DNA of 64,000 bases from Candidatus Endomicrobium procryptotermitis (lineage in GTDB: Bacteria; Elusimicrobiota; Endomicrobiia; Endomicrobiales; Endomicrobiaceae): positions 1 through 64,000 of the forward strand of contig JAITIP010000018.1 of the NCBI GenBank assembly GCA_031279415.1. The letters are read 5' to 3'. The notes under the pieces were generated by a model. That model ran no database searches, was not told the DNA's origin, and saw nothing but the letters and a program-made list of their open reading frames with translations. A program made the position numbers and the translations under genes. Within the stretch, counting starts at the first letter, position 1; each line of letters starts with the position of its first letter. Shown piece by piece: positions 45,828 to 56,335 of the stretch.

Positions 45828-45903
45828 GGGAACGTGGTGTAGCCTGGTTTAACACACTGCCCTGTCAAGGCAGAGACCGCGGGTTCAAATCCCGTCGTTC
45901 CCG
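45828..45903 (+). tRNA. trnD: tRNA-Asp (anticodon GTC)
   Basis: A 76-nt cloverleaf: GGGAACG (45828-45834) pairs with CGTTCCC (45896-45902), with discriminator G45903 and an encoded CCA at 45904-45906. The anticodon stem CTGCC/GGCAG encloses CTGTCAA, giving GTC. The T-arm contains GGTTCAAATCC. Recombinase remnants begin directly downstream, so its 3' end is a likely integration site. Confidence 0.97.
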
Positions 45904-46114
45904 CCAAGTATATCGTTACAACTTGATATACATGGCGAAGAAGACAATGAAGAAGCCGCTTGTCCGGTTATGGAATCGGATTTTGGCGGCTTTCGCATTT
46001 CTCCAGCTAAACTTTCCTTAATATCTACAAAATAGTTAAAAGGCTGTCTGTAAATAATTTTAACAGTTTTGCCTTCAAGAATACTCCCAAAAACCTTAAA
46101 ATATGGGATTTTTC
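45885..46114 (-). pseudogene. 3' remnant of a large serine recombinase (copy 1)
   Basis: On the minus strand the frame reads NRKIPYFKVFGSILEGKTVK, then IIYRQPFNYFVDIKESL, and runs on to a stop inside the tRNA-Asp gene (45885-45887). The YRQPFNYFVDIKES segment matches copy 3 near 54.3 kb (YRQPFKYFVYIKKS), and 65 bases are identical to copy 2 at 48940-49004. These texts resemble the C-terminal coiled-coil part of Tn4451/phage-type large serine recombinases. The catalytic and zinc-ribbon domains are missing here. Confidence 0.55.
46050..46114. repeat. 65-bp direct repeat, copy A
   Basis: GTAAATAATTTTAACAGTTT through the end TGGGATTTTTC is identical to 48940-49004. It encodes part of the recombinase C-terminus. 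Just outside, copy B lacks the 12 bases AAAAGGCTGTCT present before copy A. The two copies bracket the GHKL-nuclease gene. Confidence 0.92.
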
Positions 46115-46140
46115 TATTCTGCTTTATTTCAGCTTTAATT

Positions 46141-46206
46141 TTAAATCATAGATACTGCCGTGTCTGACACTTCTGTTCCACATTCCATGCATTTAGTCAA
46201 AGCCAT
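46141..46206 (-). pseudogene. Truncated zinc-ribbon protein start
   Basis: An SD (AAGGAG) precedes a minus-strand ATG at 46206, giving MALTKCMECGTEVSDTAVSM and a stop at 46141. This is the start of a common small zinc-ribbon protein ('KC.ECG.E.SD.A..CP.CG') cut before its second cysteine pair. Confidence 0.5.
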
Positions 46207-46587
46207 TGTATAACTCCTTTTATTATATGTTTTTTGTTAGGTGTCTTGAAATCGGTAAAATAAAAAGGCGGCAAATTATATGAGCCACTTAGATAACCCT
46301 ATAATCTCCGTCTCTGCCTGTTTCCGAAGAAACAGGTTAAAAACAAACGATTATTTGAGGCTCTAAGTGTGTCAAATAAGGTTTTTTATCTTATCCAGCT
46401 CAGCACAGTCTTTCTCTGCACTTCCAACAAATAATCAATATTAAGTTTTAATAAACCTTTTGGCTTACGTATACGACAAATGCTCCTAAATCTAACTTTC
46501 TTGTATTATATAAAACCAATTCCGGGATTACAAACCATTTAAAATTAAAGATTTTTTTTGATATAATTCTAGAGTCGGTTCTTATCG
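46207..46587. other. Spacer before the GHKL gene
   Basis: No intact gene is seen. CCTGTTTC (46317-46324) and GAAACAGG (46329-46336) form a perfect 8-bp hairpin with loop CGAA but without a T-run. A minus-strand frame near 46385-46500 reads RIRKPKGLLKLNIDYLLEVQ without a start and may be another remnant. A TGATATAAT extended -10 (46559-46567) and a TATAAT (46588-46593) are promoter candidates for the next gene. Confidence 0.4.
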
Positions 46588-46607
46588 TATAATCTGGATA
46601 TTTCAAT

Positions 46608-48680
46608 TTGGAGAGTATTGGAATGTTGTTGCAGACAGATATTAACGATTTAATAAAACATTACGAATTAACAAATCAAGAGGGTTTTTTGTTTTGCTTG
46701 TTTGAAGCAATATCAAATGCCCTTTATTCTTCTATTGAAAATACCGATGTAAAAATCAAAGTAAATTTTACGAGACAATACAAGGCAAATGAGATAATAG
46801 AAGATAAAGATAATTATATTAAATCTTTTATCATAACAGATAATGGCACTGGTTTTAACGATGTCAACTTTGATAGTTTTACAAGAAAAGCATATAAAAC
46901 AAATCACGCTTGCGGAAAGGGTTTAGGAAGAATGGCATTTCTTAAAGTTTTTCAAGATGTTAGCATAGACAGTTATTTTGAAGAAAATTCAAAGTTATTT
47001 CATAGAAGTTTTGTTTTTGATACATCTGAAATAAAAGACAATAAAGAAAAAGTGAAAGAATCACATAATATTGAAACATCTATTTTATTCAACAATATTA
47101 AACCTCAATATCAAAAAAGCACCTTAATTAGCATAGATGATTATCACAAGGAAATACTTAATCATTTTTATATCTTTCTATACTATTTAATAGAAGAAAA
47201 TAAAACTTTTGAGATTAAATTAACGGATGATAGCGGGAAGGTCTCCGAGAGAATAATCAATACTGAAAATTTAAAAAGTGATAAAGTCAAAAAGGAAAGT
47301 ATTAGTATTACTGATACTTCTGCATTAGGCGGAATTGATAGTAAAGTTGATTTTGAAATCCTGCATATTAAAACTAAAAATATTGAAGAAAATAAAGCCT
47401 TTTACATCGTTGATGAAAGAGCAGCTGGAACAATAAATAATCTTAATTTGCCGCCAAACGTCTTAGAGGATAAGAATGGCTTTAGATACTTTTACAATGT
47501 CTATTTAAAGTCTTCGTATTTGAATAGATTTTTGAATGAGTCAAGAACACAGTTGTCCATTCCTACTGATAAGAAGAATCCCAATAAGAGCTTTGTAACT
47601 TCCGATAAAATAGAAGCATTGTTAAAGGATAAAGTTGATAAATTTTTAAATTATGAAATTGGAGTTTTAGAGAAGAAAAATGAAGATAGAGTTAGAAAGG
47701 TGTTAACTGATAGCGAATATAATAAAATTTCAAATAATAAAGCATATTTATATTTATTGGCAGATGAAGAAACTAAAAAATCATTACTTGGTTCAATTAG
47801 ATATAATGATTCAAAGAATAGTATTGTTTCAAAGATTAAAGTTTTTCACGAGGAATTGCAGATTAAAACGATTGAAAAAATCAATAGCCTTGTTGAGAAT
47901 ATAAAAGATGTAAAAGGTGATGTTGACTTAAAAAAATTAGAGGAAGAAATAAATGATTTATCTATAAAAGTTAACCTTGAAAATTCTGTTAATCTTTCAA
48001 GTTATATTATGTATAGAAAATATGTTTTAAGTTTGTTTAACAATGCTTTGGAGTTATATAAAAATAATAAAAGTCAAAATGAAGCATTATTCCACAATTT
48101 ATTACTGCCAAAGAAAGCCAACAATAATATTGATTCAAATTTATGGCTGCTTGATGAATTATTTTTGTATTTTGACGGGGCAAGTGAGCAATCTATATCA
48201 GATATTAAAATAAAAGGTTCCAAGATAATTAGGGATTTATCTGAAGAAGAAGAGCGGCAATTGAATGAATTTAATGAAAAAAGATTAAACAAACGAATGG
48301 ATTTACTGTTTTTTCCAGAGGAAAGGAAATGTATTATTATAGAGCTTAAAGATCCAAAAATAGGGGTAAATGAAAATGCAGGGCAAATGGACAAATATGT
48401 GGAATTGTTGGCAAATTTTGTAAAGCCTGAGTTTGCAATAGAACATTTTTACACTTATTTGATAACAGATAATTTCAACAAATATGATAAACCGTCAGGC
48501 TATAGAAAAATATATAACATTGATGGTTTTGTAAGAGATTCTGCTGATATTAAAAATTTTGAAAATGATTTAACTATAGCCAACCAGTATTCAGAAATAA
48601 TAAAATATACAGATATATATACAAGAGCAAACAAACGTAATGAAATATTTTTTAATAAACTAAACATTCTATTGAATTAA
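46608..48680 (+). CDS. GHKL ATPase with C-terminal PD-(D/E)XK-like nuclease domain
   Basis: The longest frame begins at TTG 46608. ATG 46623, 8 bases after GGAGAG, is the likely start (685 residues). The N-terminus shows a Bergerat ATP-binding fold: N box FEAISNALY (Glu28, Asn32), G1 ITDNGTGFN (Asp73) and G2 CGKGLGRMAFLKVF (about 97-110). Helical, partly coiled regions fill the middle. The C-terminus has RMDLLFFPEERKCIIIELKD (Asp about 560, Glu-x-Lys about 574), the D...ExK pattern of restriction-like nucleases. An ATP-gated nuclease fits an anti-phage or anti-plasmid role, but no activity is established. It lies between recombinase remnants in an AT-richer island. Confidence 0.8.
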   Translation: MESIGMLLQTDINDLIKHYELTNQEGFLFCLFEAISNALYSSIENTDVKIKVNFTRQYKANEIIEDKDNYIKSFIITDNGTGFNDVNFDSFTRKAYKTNHACGKGLGRMAFLKVFQDVSIDSYFEENSKLFHRSFVFDTSEIKDNKEKVKESHNIETSILFNNIKPQYQKSTLISIDDYHKEILNHFYIFLYYLIEENKTFEIKLTDDSGKVSERIINTENLKSDKVKKESISITDTSALGGIDSKVDFEILHIKTKNIEENKAFYIVDERAAGTINNLNLPPNVLEDKNGFRYFYNVYLKSSYLNRFLNESRTQLSIPTDKKNPNKSFVTSDKIEALLKDKVDKFLNYEIGVLEKKNEDRVRKVLTDSEYNKISNNKAYLYLLADEETKKSLLGSIRYNDSKNSIVSKIKVFHEELQIKTIEKINSLVENIKDVKGDVDLKKLEEEINDLSIKVNLENSVNLSSYIMYRKYVLSLFNNALELYKNNKSQNEALFHNLLLPKKANNNIDSNLWLLDELFLYFDGASEQSISDIKIKGSKIIRDLSEEEERQLNEFNEKRLNKRMDLLFFPEERKCIIIELKDPKIGVNENAGQMDKYVELLANFVKPEFAIEHFYTYLITDNFNKYDKPSGYRKIYNIDGFVRDSADIKNFENDLTIANQYSEIIKYTDIYTRANKRNEIFFNKLNILLN

Positions 48681-48751
48681 ACTGTTATTTTTATTTGTAA
48701 AATGATATGTTCATAATGATAGTTTGCTTTTAAAGTAAGGAGGAAATAAAA

Positions 48752-48868
48752 ATGGCAAAAACAGTAAAAGCTTCAAGAAGTGCAGTTACGGGTAAGTTTG
48801 TTTCTAAACAATATTCTCAGCAACATCCTAAAACAACAGTTAGAGAAACAATTAAAAAGAAGAAATAA
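48752..48868 (+). CDS. Small basic 38-residue protein
   Basis: A very strong SD (AAGGAGG) precedes ATG 48752. The product starts MAKTVKASRSAVTGKFVSKQ and ends in RETIKKKK. Small proteins of the form '..TGRFVSK.YA..HP.TTV.E' are known from many bacteria without an established function. It follows the GHKL-nuclease gene after 71 bases on the same strand and may be its partner or an independent gene. Confidence 0.7.
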   Translation: MAKTVKASRSAVTGKFVSKQYSQQHPKTTVRETIKKKK

Positions 48869-48902
48869 AAGGTCTTATCGTATATTTTCTATATGATGTT
48901 AT

Positions 48903-49535
48903 CTAAGTGAACGGGTATAGTAGAGAATGCAAAATAGTTGTAAATAATTTTAACAGTTTTGCCTTCAAGAATACTCCCAAAAACCTTAAAATATGGGATT
49001 TTTCACGGTTATCTGCTGTTCTATAACGTAATTCAAGGTTATTTACTATATTTAGCATTCTATGGGCATTTTGGAGCACTTTTTGGCTATCTGCTTCACA
49101 ATAACTTAACTTGCTTTTGAGTGTAGCAAGCTCTTCTGTCAATTCCTTTTCCTTTATACTGAATATTTCTTCATTTTTTATACCATCTAAACGCATATCA
49201 TATAAGTTATGAGGAGTTCTTTTTTGTTTGTTTTTAAGTGTTCTTGCTGTTTTGATATTTCTTTTATACCTTTTTCAATCCAAGAAACAATAACATCTGG
49301 TGTAGATACTGATTTTATAACAGGCAAAAATAATTCAGGCATATTTTCTTCTCTGATATACCCGCTGTGTTTATGCTGTCCTTTTGAAAAACTGCAGCGA
49401 TAATATATATATTTCTTTTTTGCATTTTGTCCGATAATGGTACAATCGCATTTTCCGCATACTAATAACCCTCTGTATGCAAAGTCTTTTTTGCTATACA
49501 TGGTCTATGAATGTTTTGCAGGGCTTTTTAGGCAT
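48903..49535 (-). pseudogene. Serine recombinase remnant (copy 2), cut by an IS
   Basis: Minus-strand text in shifting frames reads LQNIHRP, then SKKDFAYRGLLVCGKCDC (zinc-ribbon start), IYYRCSFSKGQHKHSGYIRE, then RLDGIKNEEIFSIKEKELTE and NLELRYRTADNR. This is the recombinase zinc-ribbon and coiled-coil region of large serine recombinases. At least two frameshifts and a 12-bp in-frame deletion relative to copy 1 are present. The 5' part (catalytic domain) is removed at the IS border at 49536. Confidence 0.8.
48940..49004. repeat. 65-bp direct repeat, copy B
   Basis: Identical to 46050-46114 over 65 bases and in the same orientation; 2,890 bases separate equivalent positions. It belongs to the recombinase remnant (copy 2). 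Confidence 0.92.
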
Positions 49536-49612
49536 TGACCTTTCCCCAAAAAACACATCCATTTGTAAGTTAGTACAGAAATAAGCAAAATATAAGCAAA
49601 TGGAGGAGGTTT

Positions 49613-49879
49613 ATGGGAAAGAAGAAATTTAGCGAAGAGCAAATAATCGGGATATTGAAAGAGGCGGAAAGCGGTGTGAAGATAGTGGATTTATGCAGGA
49701 AGCACGGAATGAGTGATGCGGCATATTACAATTGGAAAACAAAGTATTCGGGCTTAACAGTAAGTGAATTAAGACGGCTTAAAGCATTGGAAGAAGAAAA
49801 CAGGCGGCTAAAAAATATAGTAGCAGAACAGGCGCTGGATATAAGGGCATTAAAGGAAATAAACGAAAAAAACTTTTAA
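49613..49879 (+). CDS. IS3-family transposase OrfA
   Basis: This 88-residue protein has a helix-turn-helix (MGKKKFSEEQIIGILKEAES, VDLCRKHGMSDAAYYNWKTK) and a leucine zipper (LRRLKALEEENRRLKNIV). It binds the IS ends. At its end the heptamer A AAA AAC (49867-49873) would shift ribosomes -1 into orfB to make the full transposase. A GGAGG SD precedes ATG 49613. The protein itself looks intact. Confidence 0.92.
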   Translation: MGKKKFSEEQIIGILKEAESGVKIVDLCRKHGMSDAAYYNWKTKYSGLTVSELRRLKALEEENRRLKNIVAEQALDIRALKEINEKNF

Positions 49880-50718
49880 AGCCTGAGGCGAGAAGGAAGG
49901 CAGTAGAGCATTTGAAAGGAAGTCTTGGGCTGAGTGAAAGGCGAGCATGTAAAATAGCAGGCATAGACAGAAGCAGCAAGAGATATAAGAGCAGAAAAAA
50001 TGATGAGGTGATAAGAGAAAAGCTTATAGGGTTGGCACAGGAGAAAAGGCGATATGGAAGCCCGAGGCTGCATATACTGTTAAGACGGGAAGGATATGTG
50101 ATAAATCACAAAAGGACGGAGAGAATATATAAAGAAGCGGGTTTATCGTTGAGAAAAAGAAGGCGTAAAAAACAGATATCAGTGATAAGAAAACCGTTGG
50201 AAACGGCAAAAGAAGCTAATGAGCAGTGGACGATGGATTTTGTGTTTGAAAGTTTATGGAGTGAAAGAAGGATAAAGATATTGACGATAATTGATAAGTA
50301 TACGAGAGAATGTCCGTATTTAGAAGTTGATACATCGATAAACGGCAGAAAGATAGTAGAAGTATTGGAACGGATAAGGGATGTAAGAAATTTGCCGCAA
50401 GTGATCACGTTAGATAATGGACCTGAGTTTACGGGAAAGATATTGGACGAATGGGCATATAGGAATCAAATAAGGTTGGATTTTATAAGACCGGGGAAGC
50501 CTGTAGAAAACGGTTATATTGAAAGTTTTAATGGAAAATTAAGAGATGAATGTTTGAATGAGAACAGATTTTTGAATATCAGAGAAGCGAAAAAAAATAG
50601 AAGAATGGCGTAAAGATTACAATGAAACAAGACCACATAGTTCTTTAAACGGTTTAAGTCCGAGTGAATTTATGAAAAAACAAGCAGAAATTACAGCTTC
50701 AAAAACGGCTTTTCACTA
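49873..50718 (+). pseudogene. IS3-family transposase OrfB, frameshifted
   Basis: The -1 frame continues from the slippery site with LLKPEARRKAVEHLKGSLGL and contains the DDE integrase domain: QWTMDFVFESLW (first Asp), VITLDNGPEFTGKIL (second Asp) and ENGYIESFNGKLRDECLNEN (Glu). At 50590-50597 a run of eight A bases replaces the seven needed for IEEWRKDYNETRPHSSLNGL, so the frame ends early at about 50613. The lost C-terminus is readable to TAA 50716-50718. Without correction by slippage the transposase is dead. Confidence 0.88.
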
Positions 50719-50751
50719 ACTTGCAAGTGGATGAACTTTTGGGGAAAGGTC

Positions 50752-50802
50752 ACTCCACCAAAAAAGCATCAATATTAAGTTGTTTTAGGTTGTGTAAAAC
50801 AC
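50752..50802 (-). pseudogene. Possible 5' fragment of a serine recombinase
   Basis: Directly beyond the IS right end the minus strand reads SVLHNLKQLNIDAFLVE. This resembles the 'L..LK..NI.V.FE.E' helix-strand of the serine recombinase catalytic domain. If so, it is the upstream part of copy 2, and the section between it and the zinc ribbon was deleted with the IS event. Confidence 0.35.
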
Positions 50803-50942
50803 TCCCTATAAGTATTATATAAAAATACAACAATTATTTATATGAAAGAAAATAATATAAAACAAATTATAGAAATACAAATATCGTATCTAGTTTTCTA
50901 AGCTATTTGTTTTTACTATAATTTAGTCACATTGGGGGGGAT

Positions 50943-52546
50943 ATGAGAATTAAAAAAGCAATCATAAAAAATTATAAAACTTTTAAACATTTTGAAATCT
51001 CATTTAATGAAGATATCAATATAATTATAGGTAATAACGAGGCAGGAAAAACCACATTGCTTGAAGCGTTGCATTTAGCCCTGACATGTCAAATACATGG
51101 TAGAAATTTAAAATATGAACTTTCTCCTTATTTTTTTAATCTTGATATAGTTAATGAATATATTGCTAATTTACAAATAAATTCACAAACTCCATTGCCA
51201 GAAATAAAAATTGAGATATTTTTTCATGAATCGGATAAGTTGAAAGATACTATTTTTTCTGGCAGAAATAATTCTTTACTGGAAGATGCTTATGGTGTAT
51301 CTTTGACAATAGCTTTTGACTCTGAATTTCAAAATGCCTACACAAGCTATATTGCAGAACCTGCAAAGGTGAAAAACATACCTATAGAGTATTATGAAGT
51401 TAAATGGTACACCTTTTCTAATGCGCCTTTTAAATTTACACAACTTCCTTTTAAGAGTTTATTTTAACAAATATTGAAAGCAAGTATTTAAACACAGCAG
51501 ATAGGCATATTTCTGATATTATAGATAACTATTTAATGGATAAAGAAAATGCCAACCTTTCGCTAATGTACAGGAAATTGAAAGAGTCATTTGGTGATGA
51601 AGAAAGTATTAAAAATATTAATAAAAAACTTGTAGAGTCCAGTTCCTCAGTAACAGATAAAAAACTTGCATTATCAGTTGATATTTCTACAAAGAATACA
51701 TGGGAAACAAACCTAACTCTTTACCTTGATGATGTTCCATTTAAATATATTGGTAAAGGGGAACAAAATGCTATTAAAACAAAGCTTGCTATACAAAATA
51801 ATTTATCAAAAACAAGTATAGTTATGATTGAAGAACCCGAAACAAGTCTTTCTTTCGGCAATATGCATAAATTGTTAAAAAACATTACAGAAAATTGTTC
51901 CAATAAACAAATTTTTGTAAGTACGCATAGCTCTTTTATATTGAATAAAATAGGTGTTGAAAAAGCTATCTTTATTCATAATAATAATGCCATGTCAATG
52001 AAGGATATTTCTCCAAAAACACAAGATTATTTCAAAAAATTACCTGGCTACGATACCCTAAGGGTTGTTTTATCAAGTAAAAGCATTCTTGTTGAAGGTC
52101 CATCAGATGAGTTGATAGTGCAACGGGCGTATCTTGATACTCATAGCAAACTTCCTATACAGGATGACATTGATGTTATGTCTGTTTCTATGGGTTTTAA
52201 GCGTTTTTTGGAAATAGCTAAAAAATTACAAAAAAATATAGTTGTTGTAACGGATAATGATGGAGATATTCCCGCATTGCAAAGCAAATATTCTGATTAT
52301 CAAAGTGAATCAAATATTAAGATATGCTACTCAAAAGATCAATCTTTAAATACCTTGGAAACAAATATTGTGGCTGTGAATGATTTGGAAGTATTAAATT
52401 CAATTCTTGGTCAAAGTTATTCGGATAAAAAATCTCTTTTAACTTATATGATAAAAAGTAAAAATAAAACAAAATGTGCGCTACTAATATTTGAAAGTAC
52501 ACATAAAATTACAATGCCTCAATACATTTTAGATGCTATCCAATGA
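50943..52546 (+). pseudogene. gajA: Gabija-like OLD nuclease GajA, one-base frameshift
   Basis: The first part (50943-51467) has an ABC-type ATPase start, MRIKKAIIKNYKTFKHFEIS, and Walker A IIIGNNEAGKTTLLEAL. The second part continues TNIESKYLNTADRHISDIID (in frame from about 51464) with ABC signature KGEQN, Walker B VMIEEPETSLSFG, STHSSFIL, and a TOPRIM domain (ILVEGPSDELIVQRAYLD, VVVTDNDGD). Restoring one T in the T-run at 51462-51465 gives a 534-residue protein, close to known GajA sizes. GajA is a nucleotide-sensing DNA nickase that acts with GajB. As read, the gene is broken; a sequencing error in a homopolymer cannot be excluded. Confidence 0.8.
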
Positions 52547-53634
52547 CTGTAAAAAATAATCGTTTTATTTTTGCGGCAGCGGGAACGGGAAAAACAACTC
52601 AAATCGTTTCCCAAGCCTTATCTATACCAGAAAAAGAAATATTAATGACTACATACACAATAGAAAACACTAACAATATAATTGATGAAATTATAAGAAA
52701 AAACGGATATATTCCTCCAAATATAACTATCTTATCTTGGTTTTCTTTTCTGCTTACTGACCTTATACGCCCATATCAAACATTTCTTTATGATAAAGAA
52801 CGAATATCAGAAATGGTTTTTTCTAATAAAATTTCAAATCTTTACACTAATAAAACCGATGTTGATAAATACTATTTTAGACGTAATTCTTCAGCTATAT
52901 ATAGCGATAAAATGTCTGCATTTGCCTATGAATGTAATAAAATAGGGGATAATGCAAGTGTAAAAAGACTTGCCAAAAGATACCACTATATATTCATTGA
53001 CGAAACACAGGATTTAAGTGGTTGGGATTTAGAAGTTATGGAGGATATATTAAATTCTGATATAAACGTTGTTATGGTTGGAGATTCGAGACAAACAACA
53101 TATAAGACCCATCAGACAAGAAAGAATTTAGCTTATGTGGACATTTATACGTGGTTTGAATATTTGGTTAAGAGAAATTTAGGAAAATTAGTTGTAATGG
53201 ATAAATCTTATAGATGTAAACAGGAAATTTGTGATTTGGCAGATAGCTTATATCCAAATTTGCCAAAAACAACATCTTTGAATAGTGATACTGTGGAACA
53301 TTGTGGATTATTTTATATAGCCACATCGGATTTAGCTACATACTATCAAAAATATAAGAAACCATTAATTCTTGTATATGACAGAACTTCACATTCTAAA
53401 GCTGGAGGTTTACCTACAATTAATTTCGGGAAAGCAAAAGGTCTTACTACGCATAGAAGCATAATAATACCAAATGGACCTATTGCGAAATTTTTAAAAA
53501 CTGGAGAGCATTCTCATATAGCAAAAAGTATTGATAAGTTTTATGTGGCGATAACAAGAGCTAAATATAGTGTCGCTTTTGTTACTGATGACACTGTCGT
53601 TTTGCCATTAGTAACAAAATATTCAATATTCTGA
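52543..53634 (+). CDS. gajB: Gabija-like UvrD-family helicase GajB
   Basis: This 363-residue superfamily 1 helicase overlaps gajA by 4 bases (ATGA). Motif I is FAAAGTGKTTQIVSQAL, motif II IFIDETQDLSGWDLEVME, motif III VVMVGDSRQTTYKTH, motif IV near DKSYRCKQEICDLAD, and motif VI FYVAITRAKYSVAFV. It lacks the large 2B domains of UvrD, as GajB does, and is shorter than well-studied GajB proteins. Its frame is intact although its partner gene is frameshifted. The OLD/UvrD pairing defines class 2 OLD systems, including Gabija defence. Confidence 0.82.
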   Translation: MTVKNNRFIFAAAGTGKTTQIVSQALSIPEKEILMTTYTIENTNNIIDEIIRKNGYIPPNITILSWFSFLLTDLIRPYQTFLYDKERISEMVFSNKISNLYTNKTDVDKYYFRRNSSAIYSDKMSAFAYECNKIGDNASVKRLAKRYHYIFIDETQDLSGWDLEVMEDILNSDINVVMVGDSRQTTYKTHQTRKNLAYVDIYTWFEYLVKRNLGKLVVMDKSYRCKQEICDLADSLYPNLPKTTSLNSDTVEHCGLFYIATSDLATYYQKYKKPLILVYDRTSHSKAGGLPTINFGKAKGLTTHRSIIIPNGPIAKFLKTGEHSHIAKSIDKFYVAITRAKYSVAFVTDDTVVLPLVTKYSIF

Positions 53635-53666
53635 TATAGCTATTTCAAAAAGTTAAATATTACTTA

Positions 53667-53846
53667 CTATTTGACTTTTACCCATTGAGTTTTGTCTTGA
53701 TTTAACGAGTAAGTTTCATTGCTAGTATTATAATGTAGTATATTTCTTTTTTGAAGCGATTTCAGACATTCTCTTGTTGTGAGAACGTAAAGGTCTGCTC
53801 TTTCATCAACAAGTTGCCAATCTGCAAGAGCTTTATTATAGATATA
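53667..53846 (-). pseudogene. Minus-strand coding fragment of unknown origin
   Basis: The frame reads NKALADWQLVDERADLYVLT, TRECLKSLQKRNILHYNTSN and ends TQWVKVK at a stop (53667-53669). No start codon or SD is found upstream, so this is the C-terminal end of a lost gene. Family not recognised. Confidence 0.35.
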
Positions 53847-53855
53847 TAGAATGAT

Positions 53856-54035
53856 ATGAGAAAATATACAAAAGAAGAAAAGAAATCACAAACAATATCT
53901 ATGCATGCACTTGAAGTATGGCGAGGTAATAAGAAATGGTTTGATGCAGCCGGAAAACCATTAAATTGTACTGAATGCCAAAAAATCTATAAGAAAGTAT
54001 ATGGTCATATTAAAACATATTTATATCATCATTAA
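53856..54035 (+). CDS. Hypothetical 59-residue protein
   Basis: The frame from ATG 53856 gives MRKYTKEEKKSQTISMHALE, WFDAAGKPLNCTECQKIYKK and ends HIKTYLYHH. One CxxC pair suggests a half zinc ribbon. The SD is weak. It could be a small island gene or a remnant; a further 29-codon frame (54046-54135) follows. Confidence 0.35.
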   Translation: MRKYTKEEKKSQTISMHALEVWRGNKKWFDAAGKPLNCTECQKIYKKVYGHIKTYLYHH

Positions 54036-54241
54036 TATATAAAGAAATGAAAGAAAAGGGGTATTTAGAAGAAAGATATAAGACTGTTGACCCAGTTAAA
54101 CGCTCAAAATCTTTTCCTGTTTTGCCCAATTTATAGCTTTTATGTTAGATAATTGTTCAAAAATCAATAGTATAAAATGCAAGAAAGCTATTCAACTCCT
54201 ACATTTTACCCCGTATTACGTATTAGTAGATGCTTAGAACT

Positions 54242-54433
54242 TTATAAATAATTAAGAGCCTTGAAGTCTTGATTTTTTAACGGATTTTGAGGTTTTTCTT
54301 TTTCCGCATAATCAATGCTTTTCTTAATATATACAAAGTATTTAAAAGGCTGTCTATAAGCGGCTTCAGAGATGTAATTCATGCCTGAAGGTATTAAATT
54401 TTGGTTATTTGATTGTTTATAGCGTAATTCAAG
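54242..54433 (-). pseudogene. 3' remnant of a serine recombinase (copy 3)
   Basis: The minus strand reads LELRYKQSNNQNLIPSGMNY, ISEAAYRQPFKYFVYIKKSI, then a charged tail ending LKNQDFKALNYL at TAA 54242. YRQPFKYFVYIKK matches copy 1, and LELRY matches copy 2. Upstream sequence does not continue in frame, so only the C-terminus survives. It closes the island before mnmG. Confidence 0.6.
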
Positions 54434-54547: not shown

Positions 54548-56335
54548 ATGGAAAACAAATACGATGTAATAGTTATCGGAGCGGGACATGCCGGCTGCGA
54601 GGCCTGTCTTGCGACCGCAAGAATGGGTTTTAAAACTCTTATAATTACTTTAAATGTCGATTCTATAGCAAGAATGCCTTGCAACCCTGCCGTCGGTGGC
54701 ATTGCAAAAGGGCAGATGGTAAGAGAAATAGACGCTATGGGCGGAGAAATGGCATGGGCAACAGACCATGCGGGGATACAATTTAAAATATTAAACAGTT
54801 CAAGAGGCCCTGCGGTTTGGTCGCCGAGAGCTCAGTGCGATAAAGAATTGTATTCCGTGTTAATGTCGAAAACGCTTCAAAATACGAAAAATCTCGATAT
54901 TTTGCAGTCTGAAGCGACTTCGTTAATCGTAAAAAATGGTAAAGTCTGCGGAGTTAAAATACTTACGGGAGAAAGAATTGAAGCAAAATCCGTAGTCGTC
55001 ACTACAGGAACGTTCTTGAGAGGAACTATACATCTTGGTAAGATGTTTTTTAATGGTGGCAGATTTAACGAAAGAGAAGCCGCTCATCTGTCAAAATCGT
55101 TAATTGAAGACTGCGGGCTTAAACTCGAGAGATTTAAAACTACCACTACTCCGCGTATCAACTCAAATTCAATAGATTATTCAAAAATGAGCGAACAGCC
55201 GGGAGACGTAAATCCCAAACCCTTTTCGCATTTCACAGAGATGGAAAGGTGGAGAAAAAATTTAAAACAAGTCTCATGTTGGCTTACTTACACAAATCCC
55301 ATAACGCATAAAATAGTCGGAGATAATATAGATTTATCATCGATACCGATAAGTAACGGTGACAGTAAAAGTCCGCGCTACTGTCCTGCCATAGAAGAAA
55401 AAATCGAAAGGTATCCGCAAAAGACAAGTCATCATATTTTTGTGGAACCCGAAGGATATAATACGAATGAAATTTACCTCAACGGCTTATACACCGGACT
55501 GCCTTTCAATTTACAGCAGCAGATGATAAACTCTATAGCCGGACTTGAACATGCAAAAGTTATCAGATACGCTTATGCTATAGAATACGATTATTCAAGT
55601 CCTTTGCAGATAAAAAAGAGTTTGGAAACAAAAACCGTAGAAAATATTTTTCTCGGAGGCCAGATTAACGGGACAACCGGATATGAAGAAGCCGCTGCAC
55701 AGGGGTTTATCGCAGGAGTAAACGCAGGCCTTAAGATTTTAGGCAGGCTTCCCTTAATACTCGGAAGAAACGAATCTTACATAGGAATTCTCATAGATGA
55801 TATAACCACAAAAGGTATGGACGAACCTTACAGGATGTTTACATCACGTGCGGAATACAGGCTTTCAATAAGAAATGACAATGCGGATTTGCGGCTTATG
55901 GACATAGGCCGTTCAATAGGGCTTATTTCTGACGCTATGTACAAAAAGTTTGAATTGTACAAAAAAACTCTAACGGATATTTATGAAGGAAACGAAGAAA
56001 ATATTCCTACAGATGAAGAACTGGCACCTTGGTCGCTTGAAAAAGTTAAGGAAGAGCTTTATATACACAAAAAATATGAAGGGTATATTGAAATACAAGA
56101 TAAAATGGCTGCAAAAATGAAAAAAAGTGAAGACCGTAGAATTCCAGACGATTTCGATTATAGTAAACTCGTTTCTCTTTCTGCAGAAACCAAGCAGAGA
56201 CTTTTTGAAGTGAAACCTCAAACTCTTGGACAAGCCGCAAGAATACATGCCATAAAACCTTCAGATATTGCCATTTTGACGGTTTATCTCGAAAAAGAAA
56301 GAAAACGGAGAAAAAATGAAAAACAAATCCATTGA
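54548..56335 (+). CDS. mnmG: tRNA uridine-34 modification enzyme MnmG (GidA)
   Basis: MnmG (595 residues) with MnmE installs carboxymethylaminomethyl at wobble U34. ATG 54548 with a GGAGGG SD gives MENKYDVIVIGAGHAGCEAC, the FAD-binding start; the frame is open from 54491. Other signatures are MPCNPAVGGIAKGQMVREID, GTFLRGTIHLGKMFFNGGRF, and GQINGTTGYEEAAAQGFIAG. C-terminal helices including YEGYIEIQDKMAAKMKKSED bind MnmE and tRNA. It is the first housekeeping gene after the island. Confidence 0.97.
   Translation: MENKYDVIVIGAGHAGCEACLATARMGFKTLIITLNVDSIARMPCNPAVGGIAKGQMVREIDAMGGEMAWATDHAGIQFKILNSSRGPAVWSPRAQCDKELYSVLMSKTLQNTKNLDILQSEATSLIVKNGKVCGVKILTGERIEAKSVVVTTGTFLRGTIHLGKMFFNGGRFNEREAAHLSKSLIEDCGLKLERFKTTTTPRINSNSIDYSKMSEQPGDVNPKPFSHFTEMERWRKNLKQVSCWLTYTNPITHKIVGDNIDLSSIPISNGDSKSPRYCPAIEEKIERYPQKTSHHIFVEPEGYNTNEIYLNGLYTGLPFNLQQQMINSIAGLEHAKVIRYAYAIEYDYSSPLQIKKSLETKTVENIFLGGQINGTTGYEEAAAQGFIAGVNAGLKILGRLPLILGRNESYIGILIDDITTKGMDEPYRMFTSRAEYRLSIRNDNADLRLMDIGRSIGLISDAMYKKFELYKKTLTDIYEGNEENIPTDEELAPWSLEKVKEELYIHKKYEGYIEIQDKMAAKMKKSEDRRIPDDFDYSKLVSLSAETKQRLFEVKPQTLGQAARIHAIKPSDIAILTVYLEKERKRRKNEKQIH

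Follow-up and report, generated by a model that had tools for sequence, protein, structure and literature searches.

The region described here lies in a 64,000-nucleotide stretch of DNA (the window, i.e. the whole stretch analysed) from contig C18 of a member of the Endomicrobiaceae (Elusimicrobiota), presumably associated with termite guts, whose genome of 2.0 Mb in 46 contigs is designated G000. An AT-rich island (GC 0.30 vs 0.354 for the window) starts at a tRNA-Asp gene, and holds in order the 3' end of a large serine recombinase (LSR) gene, called LSR A, a structured RNA, a GHKL gene, a gene for a 38-residue protein, the middle part of LSR A, an IS3-like element, gajA in two pieces, gajB, a small open reading frame (ORF) and the 3' end of a second recombinase gene, LSR C, after which comes mnmG. 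It is very probable that this is a decayed island built by LSRs integrating at the 3' end of tRNA-Asp, and the arrangement observed in the window is more than chance. The features are the following.

45828-45906, +, tRNA-Asp (GTC), target gene and proposed attB half (ARAGORN; Rfam RF00005)
45885-46114, -, LSR gene A, 3' end, copy 1 (translation; 73-76% identity to the 3' end of the G037 LSR at tRNA-Asp)
46049-46114, left copy of an exact 66-bp direct repeat (LSR sequence)
46141-46206, -, start of a truncated zinc-ribbon ORF (MALTKCMECGTEVSDTAVS), downstream of the structured RNA
46248-46474, -, structured RNA containing a pseudoknot; terminator-like hairpin and U run at the 3' end
46608-48680 (start 46608 or 46626), +, GHKL ATPase, candidate defence gene
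48752-48868, +, gene for a basic protein of 38 residues
48939-49004, right copy of the exact 66-bp direct repeat (LSR sequence)
48939-49540, -, LSR gene A, middle part, copy 2; includes the zinc ribbon, is frameshifted several times and breaks off at the end of the insertion sequence (Pfam PF13408, E 6.7e-10)
49536-50752, +, IS3-like insertion sequence (Pfam HTH_Tnp_1 and rve; ends)
50943-51467, +, gajA, 5' part, AAA ATPase (PADLOC GajA, 7.4e-60)
51536-52546, +, gajA, 3' part in another frame, OLD-like TOPRIM (PADLOC GajA, 3.7e-129; PF20469)
52543-53634, +, gajB, UvrD-like helicase (PADLOC GajB, 3.2e-111)
53856-54035, +, 59-residue ORF from the ORF list, without a confident family match
54209-54430, -, LSR gene C, 3' end remnant, copy 3, with an attachment (att)-like junction (similarity to the G039 remnant and to G037 attL)
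54548-56335, mnmG

Recombinase remnants at tRNA-Asp

A previous reading of the sequence alone (the sequence-only reading) had noticed the tRNA-Asp gene, an insertion sequence cutting one recombinase copy, and three recombinase remnants on the minus strand. The first two points hold, as do the orientation of the remnants and their identity, established for copy 2 by a profile match (Zn_ribbon_recom) and for copies 1 and 3 by homology to an LSR gene located at tRNA-Asp in a relative. The number had to be revised, since the remnants probably derive from two genes: copies 1 and 2 tile a single LSR gene, and copy 3 belongs to a second one. What is left of LSR in the window is zinc ribbon and C-terminal part only. 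The open frame of LSR A reads ...GKTVKIIYRQPFNYFVDIKES...GGNDGI*, and its stop codon (45885-45887) lies inside tRNA-Asp, on the antisense strand, with a 22-bp overlap between the two genes. Aligned to the LSR region of the relative G037, copy 1 (45828-46114) spans positions 43-325, and copy 2 (48972-49540, 73% identical) positions 293-883. The only sequence common to the two copies is the exact direct repeat, 46049-46114 being equal to 48939-49004, and the next base differs on both sides. As both copies belong to one gene, and have only the 66-bp repeat in common, the GHKL segment (46115-48938) lies inside the recombinase gene; the simplest reading of the alignments would be that it was inserted there, leaving the direct repeat.

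The repeat may have arisen by entry of a circle through a single crossover, by tandem duplication, or by two deletions in duplicate LSRs. According to the first hypothesis, which has appreciable though less than even chances and is compatible with an island built by LSRs, the GHKL gene came in by homologous crossover, on a circle which included 66 bp of LSR sequence, in an event due neither to the LSR nor to the insertion sequence. The hypothesis accounts for the exact direct repeats found within the LSR gene on either side of 46115-48938, and 66 bp is far longer than the duplications usually made by transposases; moreover, a relative of the GHKL gene resides in another tRNA-Asp island lacking a detectable LSR. 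No such circle has been seen, however, and tandem duplication or two deletions give the same geometry. It is rather doubtful that each of the three remnants stands for an element of its own, copies 1 and 2 having been near-identical tandem LSR elements, next to an older copy 3, that were later eroded by independent deletions. Same-strand arrays do exist in relatives, and all the remnants lie on one strand. Yet copies 1 and 2 cover adjoining parts of one gene, with an overlap of exactly 66 bp and a similar divergence from G037 (about 73-76% identity), and two independent deletions would need endpoints leaving just that overlap.

The insertion sequence which interrupts LSR A has ends that match over 16 bp (at 49536 and at 50752), and carries orfA (49613-49879) and orfB (49912-50613), with a frameshift near the end of the latter. 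Nothing in the sequence immediately beyond it (50753-50942) matches the G037 LSR, and no target duplication has been seen at its ends; together, these data suggest that the remainder of LSR A was lost in a deletion associated with the insertion sequence. Transposase ORFs very like those of this element are found elsewhere in the same genome (L376, G000:C38), closely following a further copy of the structured RNA.

Copy 3 is 78% identical over 130 bp (54219-54348) to a remnant of the relative G039 (L099, 12303-12430) located 3.4 kb beyond tRNA-Asp, and both sequences are found beside a CCCC(C)GTATTA junction. In the window the CCCC core (54209-54212) is followed by GTATTA and by the P' side. 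CCCCGTATTA is the very end of tRNA-Asp in G037 and G018, and copy 3 aligns to G037 from the last tRNA bases onward (70% identity to the G037 attL). As the alignment starts at the tRNA end of G037, and the junction is shared, copy 3 has the appearance of an older element's P' side; the neighbour of that element on the tRNA side would now be the end of another one.

tRNA genes as targets of serine recombinases

Relatives of the island recombinases were searched by a profile (A1) built from six intact LSRs, which gives matches with E of 1e-20 or lower in 163 of 340 Elusimicrobiota genomes. The intact relative L037 features the Resolvase (PF00239, 5.5e-18), Recombinase (PF07508, 3.4e-15) and zinc ribbon (PF13408, 5.5e-10) domains. 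LSR genes of this group are head-on to a tRNA gene, which their 3' end overlaps. The overlap was counted in two sets. The Elusimicrobiota set includes 30 loci of the profile search, 40 loci chosen by hand from the matches listed, and some further loci; it is a part of all matches, and the selection favoured those extending to the C-terminus. The named set, which partly repeats the former, consists of the 80 best loci from a scan of named species genomes across all GTDB. ORFs whose match to the profile does not reach position 470, ORFs with less than 100 bp past the stop, and duplicates defined by the last 120 residues were excluded, and other ORFs of at least 150 residues within the same loci served as controls. 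In the Elusimicrobiota set 60 of 72 distinct LSR 3' ends fall inside a convergent tRNA or transfer-messenger RNA (tmRNA) gene, and one more ends within 100 bp of one, vs 0/311 controls. Targets are tRNA-His (21), Glu (11), Asp and Ser (7 each), Gln (5), Asn and Leu (3 each), Arg (1), an unnamed isotype (1) and tmRNA (1). In the named set, where records labelled Patescibacteria, Gastranaerophilales, Planctomycetota and Verrucomicrobia are found among others, the overlap was observed for 45/72 LSRs, vs 1/488 controls. Altogether more than ten isotypes are used, in addition to tmRNA. In a tree of 124 LSRs tRNA overlap is found throughout, and the isotype differs between closely placed members. 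The broader result of this work, beyond the window, would be a group of serine integrases specialised in tRNA genes.

The site of crossover can be approached by comparing two nearly identical recombinases in different contexts, L037, found at the tRNA-His gene of G082, and L109, found in an array of G189. Of their first 490 residues 480 are identical, and the DNA agrees through ATGGGGT, then diverges, giving different C-terminal tails: L037 enters the tRNA gene antisense and stops after WGG, L109 continues for 23 other residues. Since divergence begins right after ATGGGGT, the crossover would fall within the final tRNA bases, which read ACCCC on the tRNA strand, and the stop codon of the recombinase would come from the host tRNA. 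The length of the overlap tracks the isotype (mostly 11 bp for His, 29 for Glu, about 41 for Asp). The only core common to the junctions is of the CCCC type, and CCCC is present at those of L109, L165, L166, L043, the G039 remnant and window position 54209. In L109, L165, L166 and L043, which do not overlap a tRNA gene, the CCCC junction lies at or near the end of the LSR; three other non-overlapping LSRs (L134, L120 and L169) have in common a different flank that is not a tRNA. The attP arm of G189 is absent from the stretches of G082, G119 and G166 that were searched.

Seven tRNA-Asp loci were found in the family. An LSR is found in three (the window, G037 and G039), GHKL cargo only in one (G046), and three (G014, G018 and G004) are without an LSR. 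Empty sites and alternative cassettes thus both occur at tRNA-Asp, and gene content is not fixed among relatives. G037 associates the LSR with QatD (PADLOC 5.1e-65), and G039 with AbiEi and AbiEii (PADLOC 1.3e-67 and 6.2e-99); in G039 a second LSR remnant also lies behind the LSR at the tRNA. In G046, 2.3 kb from tRNA-Asp and at a contig end, there is the beginning of a GHKL homologue with 78% identity, and no LSR was found there. In G037, G039 and G046 tRNA-Asp follows a glyA-like gene, not crcB; since the neighbourhood differs in these occupied relatives, the target appears to be the tRNA gene itself. An intact recombinase carrying the same cargo, looked for as a relative of the window island, was found in G082, where an LSR at tRNA-His precedes GajA, GajB and a protein with an HSDR_N domain. 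The GajA of G082 is 54% identical to that of the window, and is its closest match among 60 relatives. The G037 tRNA-Asp island (L093, 9903-13583) also hosts, together with QatD, an ORF for a tyrosine recombinase (Phage_integrase). Similar-looking ORFs of a single uncharacterised family, for which only weak DrmA matches were obtained, recur in or near these loci (L093, 13803-14627; L099, 14117-14659; L094, 410-1150), and that of L093 is followed by a DUF4325 STAS-like protein.

The possibility that the island was made by a tyrosine integrase acting at tRNA-Asp, and that LSRs are merely cargo, comes to mind because classical tRNA islands are made by tyrosine integrases, as stated in the accessible text of PMC4383910, and a Phage_integrase ORF does reside in the G037 island. 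It is very unlikely, as the gene overlapping the tRNA is an LSR in G037, in G039 and in general, and no tyrosine integrase was found among the window island proteins scanned with Pfam. That the island is a static defence locus formed by illegitimate recombination at a tolerant site, with recombinases as unrelated debris, would fit its AT-rich, decayed and IS-struck appearance, but is hardly credible in the face of the overlap counts (60/72 vs 0/311) and of relatives in which the same target, in non-homologous neighbourhoods, hosts different cargo and intact or near-intact LSRs.

Integration by LSRs at the tRNA 3' end may proceed as follows. An element endowed with an LSR and cargo would exist as a circle, and the LSR would recombine its own attP, overlapping the 3' end of the LSR gene, with the 3' end of the tRNA. 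The tRNA would be kept whole, the sequence up to the crossover being host DNA, and the LSR would gain its last codons and the stop from the tRNA antisense strand. The tRNA end beside the new element would be reusable, and a later element could insert between the two, displacing the older one. Such accretion can be looked for in contigs with two LSR matches. Eight were picked among the matches listed, leaving out G007:C96, which has two adjacent fragments on one strand, and both LSRs lie on one strand in 6/8; in G130, G142 and G060 one LSR overlaps tRNA-His, the other no tRNA. The arrangement in the window, where LSR A adjoins the tRNA and LSR C lies farther away, agrees with this pattern, though the order of insertion is inferred. 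The older unit would be LSR C, next to mnmG, the newer one LSR A with Gabija behind it; both would have been degraded, LSR A being split by the GHKL segment between the 66-bp repeats and deprived of its N-terminal part beyond the insertion sequence. The sequence-only reading had proposed serial insertion of recombinase-borne defence cassettes at one site. Loading at one tRNA gene is supported by the relatives, a recombinase for each cassette is not. A wider scenario, unlikely as a whole, may be drawn from these data. Widespread serine integrases would have specialised on tRNA genes, switching isotype through their phylogeny, and the host tRNA would write their last codons and stop; as the C-terminal tail would differ between the tRNA-bound and the circular or displaced state, the state of integration could regulate the recombinase, keeping only the tRNA-proximal element mobile, with older defence cargo stored behind it.

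Several observations weigh against integration by LSRs at tRNA ends as described. The LSRs of the window are all incomplete, and their catalytic domain is gone. The attR of the window and the flank of the empty site cannot be located, the right flank being rearranged: mnmG is near gmk in all the five relatives having both genes in one stretch. A search of the 26,315 bases beyond the tRNA-His gene of G082 for its terminal 9 or more bases gave no copy, and attR was not identified there. The inverted-repeat symmetry of the predicted attP arm is not significant (10/22, with 1870 of 2000 shuffles as good). No tRNA overlap was detected for 12/72 LSRs of the Elusimicrobiota set and 27/72 of the named set, and an alphaproteobacterial clade (L225, L227, L229, L245, L250 and L256) lacks it. 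Finally, the overlap is rare among matches in viral contigs. Of 47 LSR loci in IMG/VR, about 30 have at least 100 bp past the ORF, and two of these overlap a tRNA gene (L311 and L314), plus L317 near a contig end.

A phage origin of the tRNA-overlapping type was considered and rejected, as the type is not mainly viral in IMG/VR, overlap being rare there. Matches of the LSR to phages amount to 296 records, all less than 60% identical, and only 2 cover 80% of the query.

Cargo, structured RNA and relocation of mnmG

The pair of OLD and UvrD genes noticed in the sequence-only reading corresponds to gajA and gajB of the Gabija system, as assigned by PADLOC, and the two genes are adjacent. gajB is intact; gajA is frameshifted near 51467, and therefore the Gabija of the window is probably inactive, unless the frameshift is a sequencing error. 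The same reading had taken a GHKL-nuclease and a small gene for a defence cassette. Both genes are there, but the GHKL protein has no PADLOC match at 0.1 and no NCBIfam match, and its role in defence is conjectural. The ATPase domain is recognised by Pfam at a level weaker than the curated cut-off (HATPase_c_3, E 2.5e-4). At the C-terminus a D...(PEE.K).IELK motif is kept in two relatives, with D559...E573-L-K575 conserved in 3/3 proteins compared, and this D...ELK signature may be a PD-(D/E)xK nuclease motif. The structure model has a mean pLDDT of 38.6, the C-terminal blocks reaching mostly 63-86, and a fold search gave McrC (E 0.066) and Kpn2I as best PDB hits, in the not significant range 0.066-0.18. 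A GHKL-nuclease is thus no more than a plausible assignment. Matches in plasmids were found in 33 records, all less than 60% identical. The basic protein of 38 residues has no match in Pfam, PADLOC or NCBIfam, and the ORF at 53856-54035 no confident family in Pfam or NCBIfam.

The RNA found at 46248-46474 on the minus strand belongs to a family for which no Rfam match at gathering thresholds was obtained. In a 17-member alignment 30 of 45 pairs are changed on both sides, including 8/8 of the pseudoknot helix, which is hypervariable and yet complementary. Cells of the alignment are paired in 95.4% of cases, vs 38.9-50.2% for slid structures, a comparison favoured by the structure having been derived on the same alignment. 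The RNA was found in 59 of 198 Elusimicrobiota genomes tested, in up to ten copies per genome. It ends in a terminator-like hairpin shortly upstream of varied accessory genes, and an ORF of at least 60 residues starts within 250 nt after it in 23 of 27 loci parsed (30 given). Judging family names by eye, these ORFs are presumably prepilin-like in eight cases, DNA methylase/restriction-like in three and glycosyltransferase-like in three. A longer ORF similar to the zinc-ribbon start at 46141-46206 follows the same RNA in L406, and one weak match to the RNA lies inside the G082 element, directly ahead of the HSDR_N gene. The family is a candidate for a new cis-regulatory RNA.

mnmG is divergent near gmk, upstream of udg-priA, in G014, G018, G004, G031 and G028; in the window it follows the island. 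Its relocation would be accounted for if the gmk-tRNA-Asp block had been inverted, one breakpoint falling at the island. The G000 mnmG is 86% identical to that of G014, and only 70-73% to those of its genus mates. Horizontal acquisition of the gene by the island was considered and rejected, as trees place the G000 mnmG about as priA predicts, and indicate G001 and G004 as the divergent ones; mnmG is only relocated, not transferred. In G001 and G004 (L091 and L092) mnmG is 73% identical, vs 83% for priA, and the G004 gene is in the ancestral place; in these genomes mnmG has been either accelerated or replaced.

Comparison with known systems

tRNA genes are heavily used as integration targets by genomic islands. 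An island database of 2015 is limited to tyrosine integrases for the reason, given in its accessible text, that no serine integrase was known to use tRNA genes as its target (PMC4383910). A survey of 2023, in the portions available, lists 29 attB sites in M. abscessus, six of which are used by serine integrases, and assigns the tRNA/tmRNA sites to tyrosine integrases (PMC10654092). Targeting of tRNA by serine integrases is not described in the accessible parts of PMC12884075, PMC12765450, PMC5704250, PMC11257099, PMC6379469 and PMC8637289. No report of it was found in a search of open-access literature, most subscription papers and preprints being outside its scope, and the claim of novelty is limited accordingly. 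If true, tRNA-targeting serine integrases would change the rule that leaves tRNA genes to tyrosine integrases, and reveal islands missed by searches built on it. They would also offer genome engineers recombinases whose target sites are conserved and portable, and provide a defined route by which gut and uncultured, poorly known bacteria may load and stack phage-defence genes.

As in the tRNA/tmRNA islands of the Islander type, made by tyrosine integrases, the integrase gene is found here by the tRNA 3' end, with cargo beyond, at many isotypes and tmRNA. In contrast to those islands, the integrase is an LSR, its stop codon lies in the tRNA antisense strand, and no copy of the tRNA 3' end (at least 9 bases) was found on the far side of one element tested. 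The structures closest by sequence to this LSR group include those of the SPbeta YokA (9dxh, 8e-20), A118 (4kis, 1.5e-13) and TP901-1 (3bvp, 3.1e-15) integrases. All three are serine integrases which target protein genes. Staphylococcal cassette chromosome (SCC) elements, among which SCCmec, are likewise LSR-driven cargo islands, formed by tandem accretion at the 3' end of a gene, rlmH, through the Ccr serine recombinases. Models of Ccr give weak matches to the LSR (CcrB 4.8e-19, falling far short of the cut-off) and, unlike SCC elements, those described here target tRNA genes of many isotypes rather than rlmH, with one LSR per element. gajA and gajB are adjacent as in known Gabija systems, but gajA is frameshifted, and the pair is carried on an LSR-tRNA island. 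A close parallel to the exchange of C-terminal ends is found in the streptococcal integrative and conjugative elements which target rumA. In these, according to the accessible text of PMC4701971, the att site is in the 3' end of the serine integrase gene, and integration swaps the C-terminal codons of the integrase. rumA is a protein gene; in the elements described here, the end exchanged would be the antisense strand of a tRNA.

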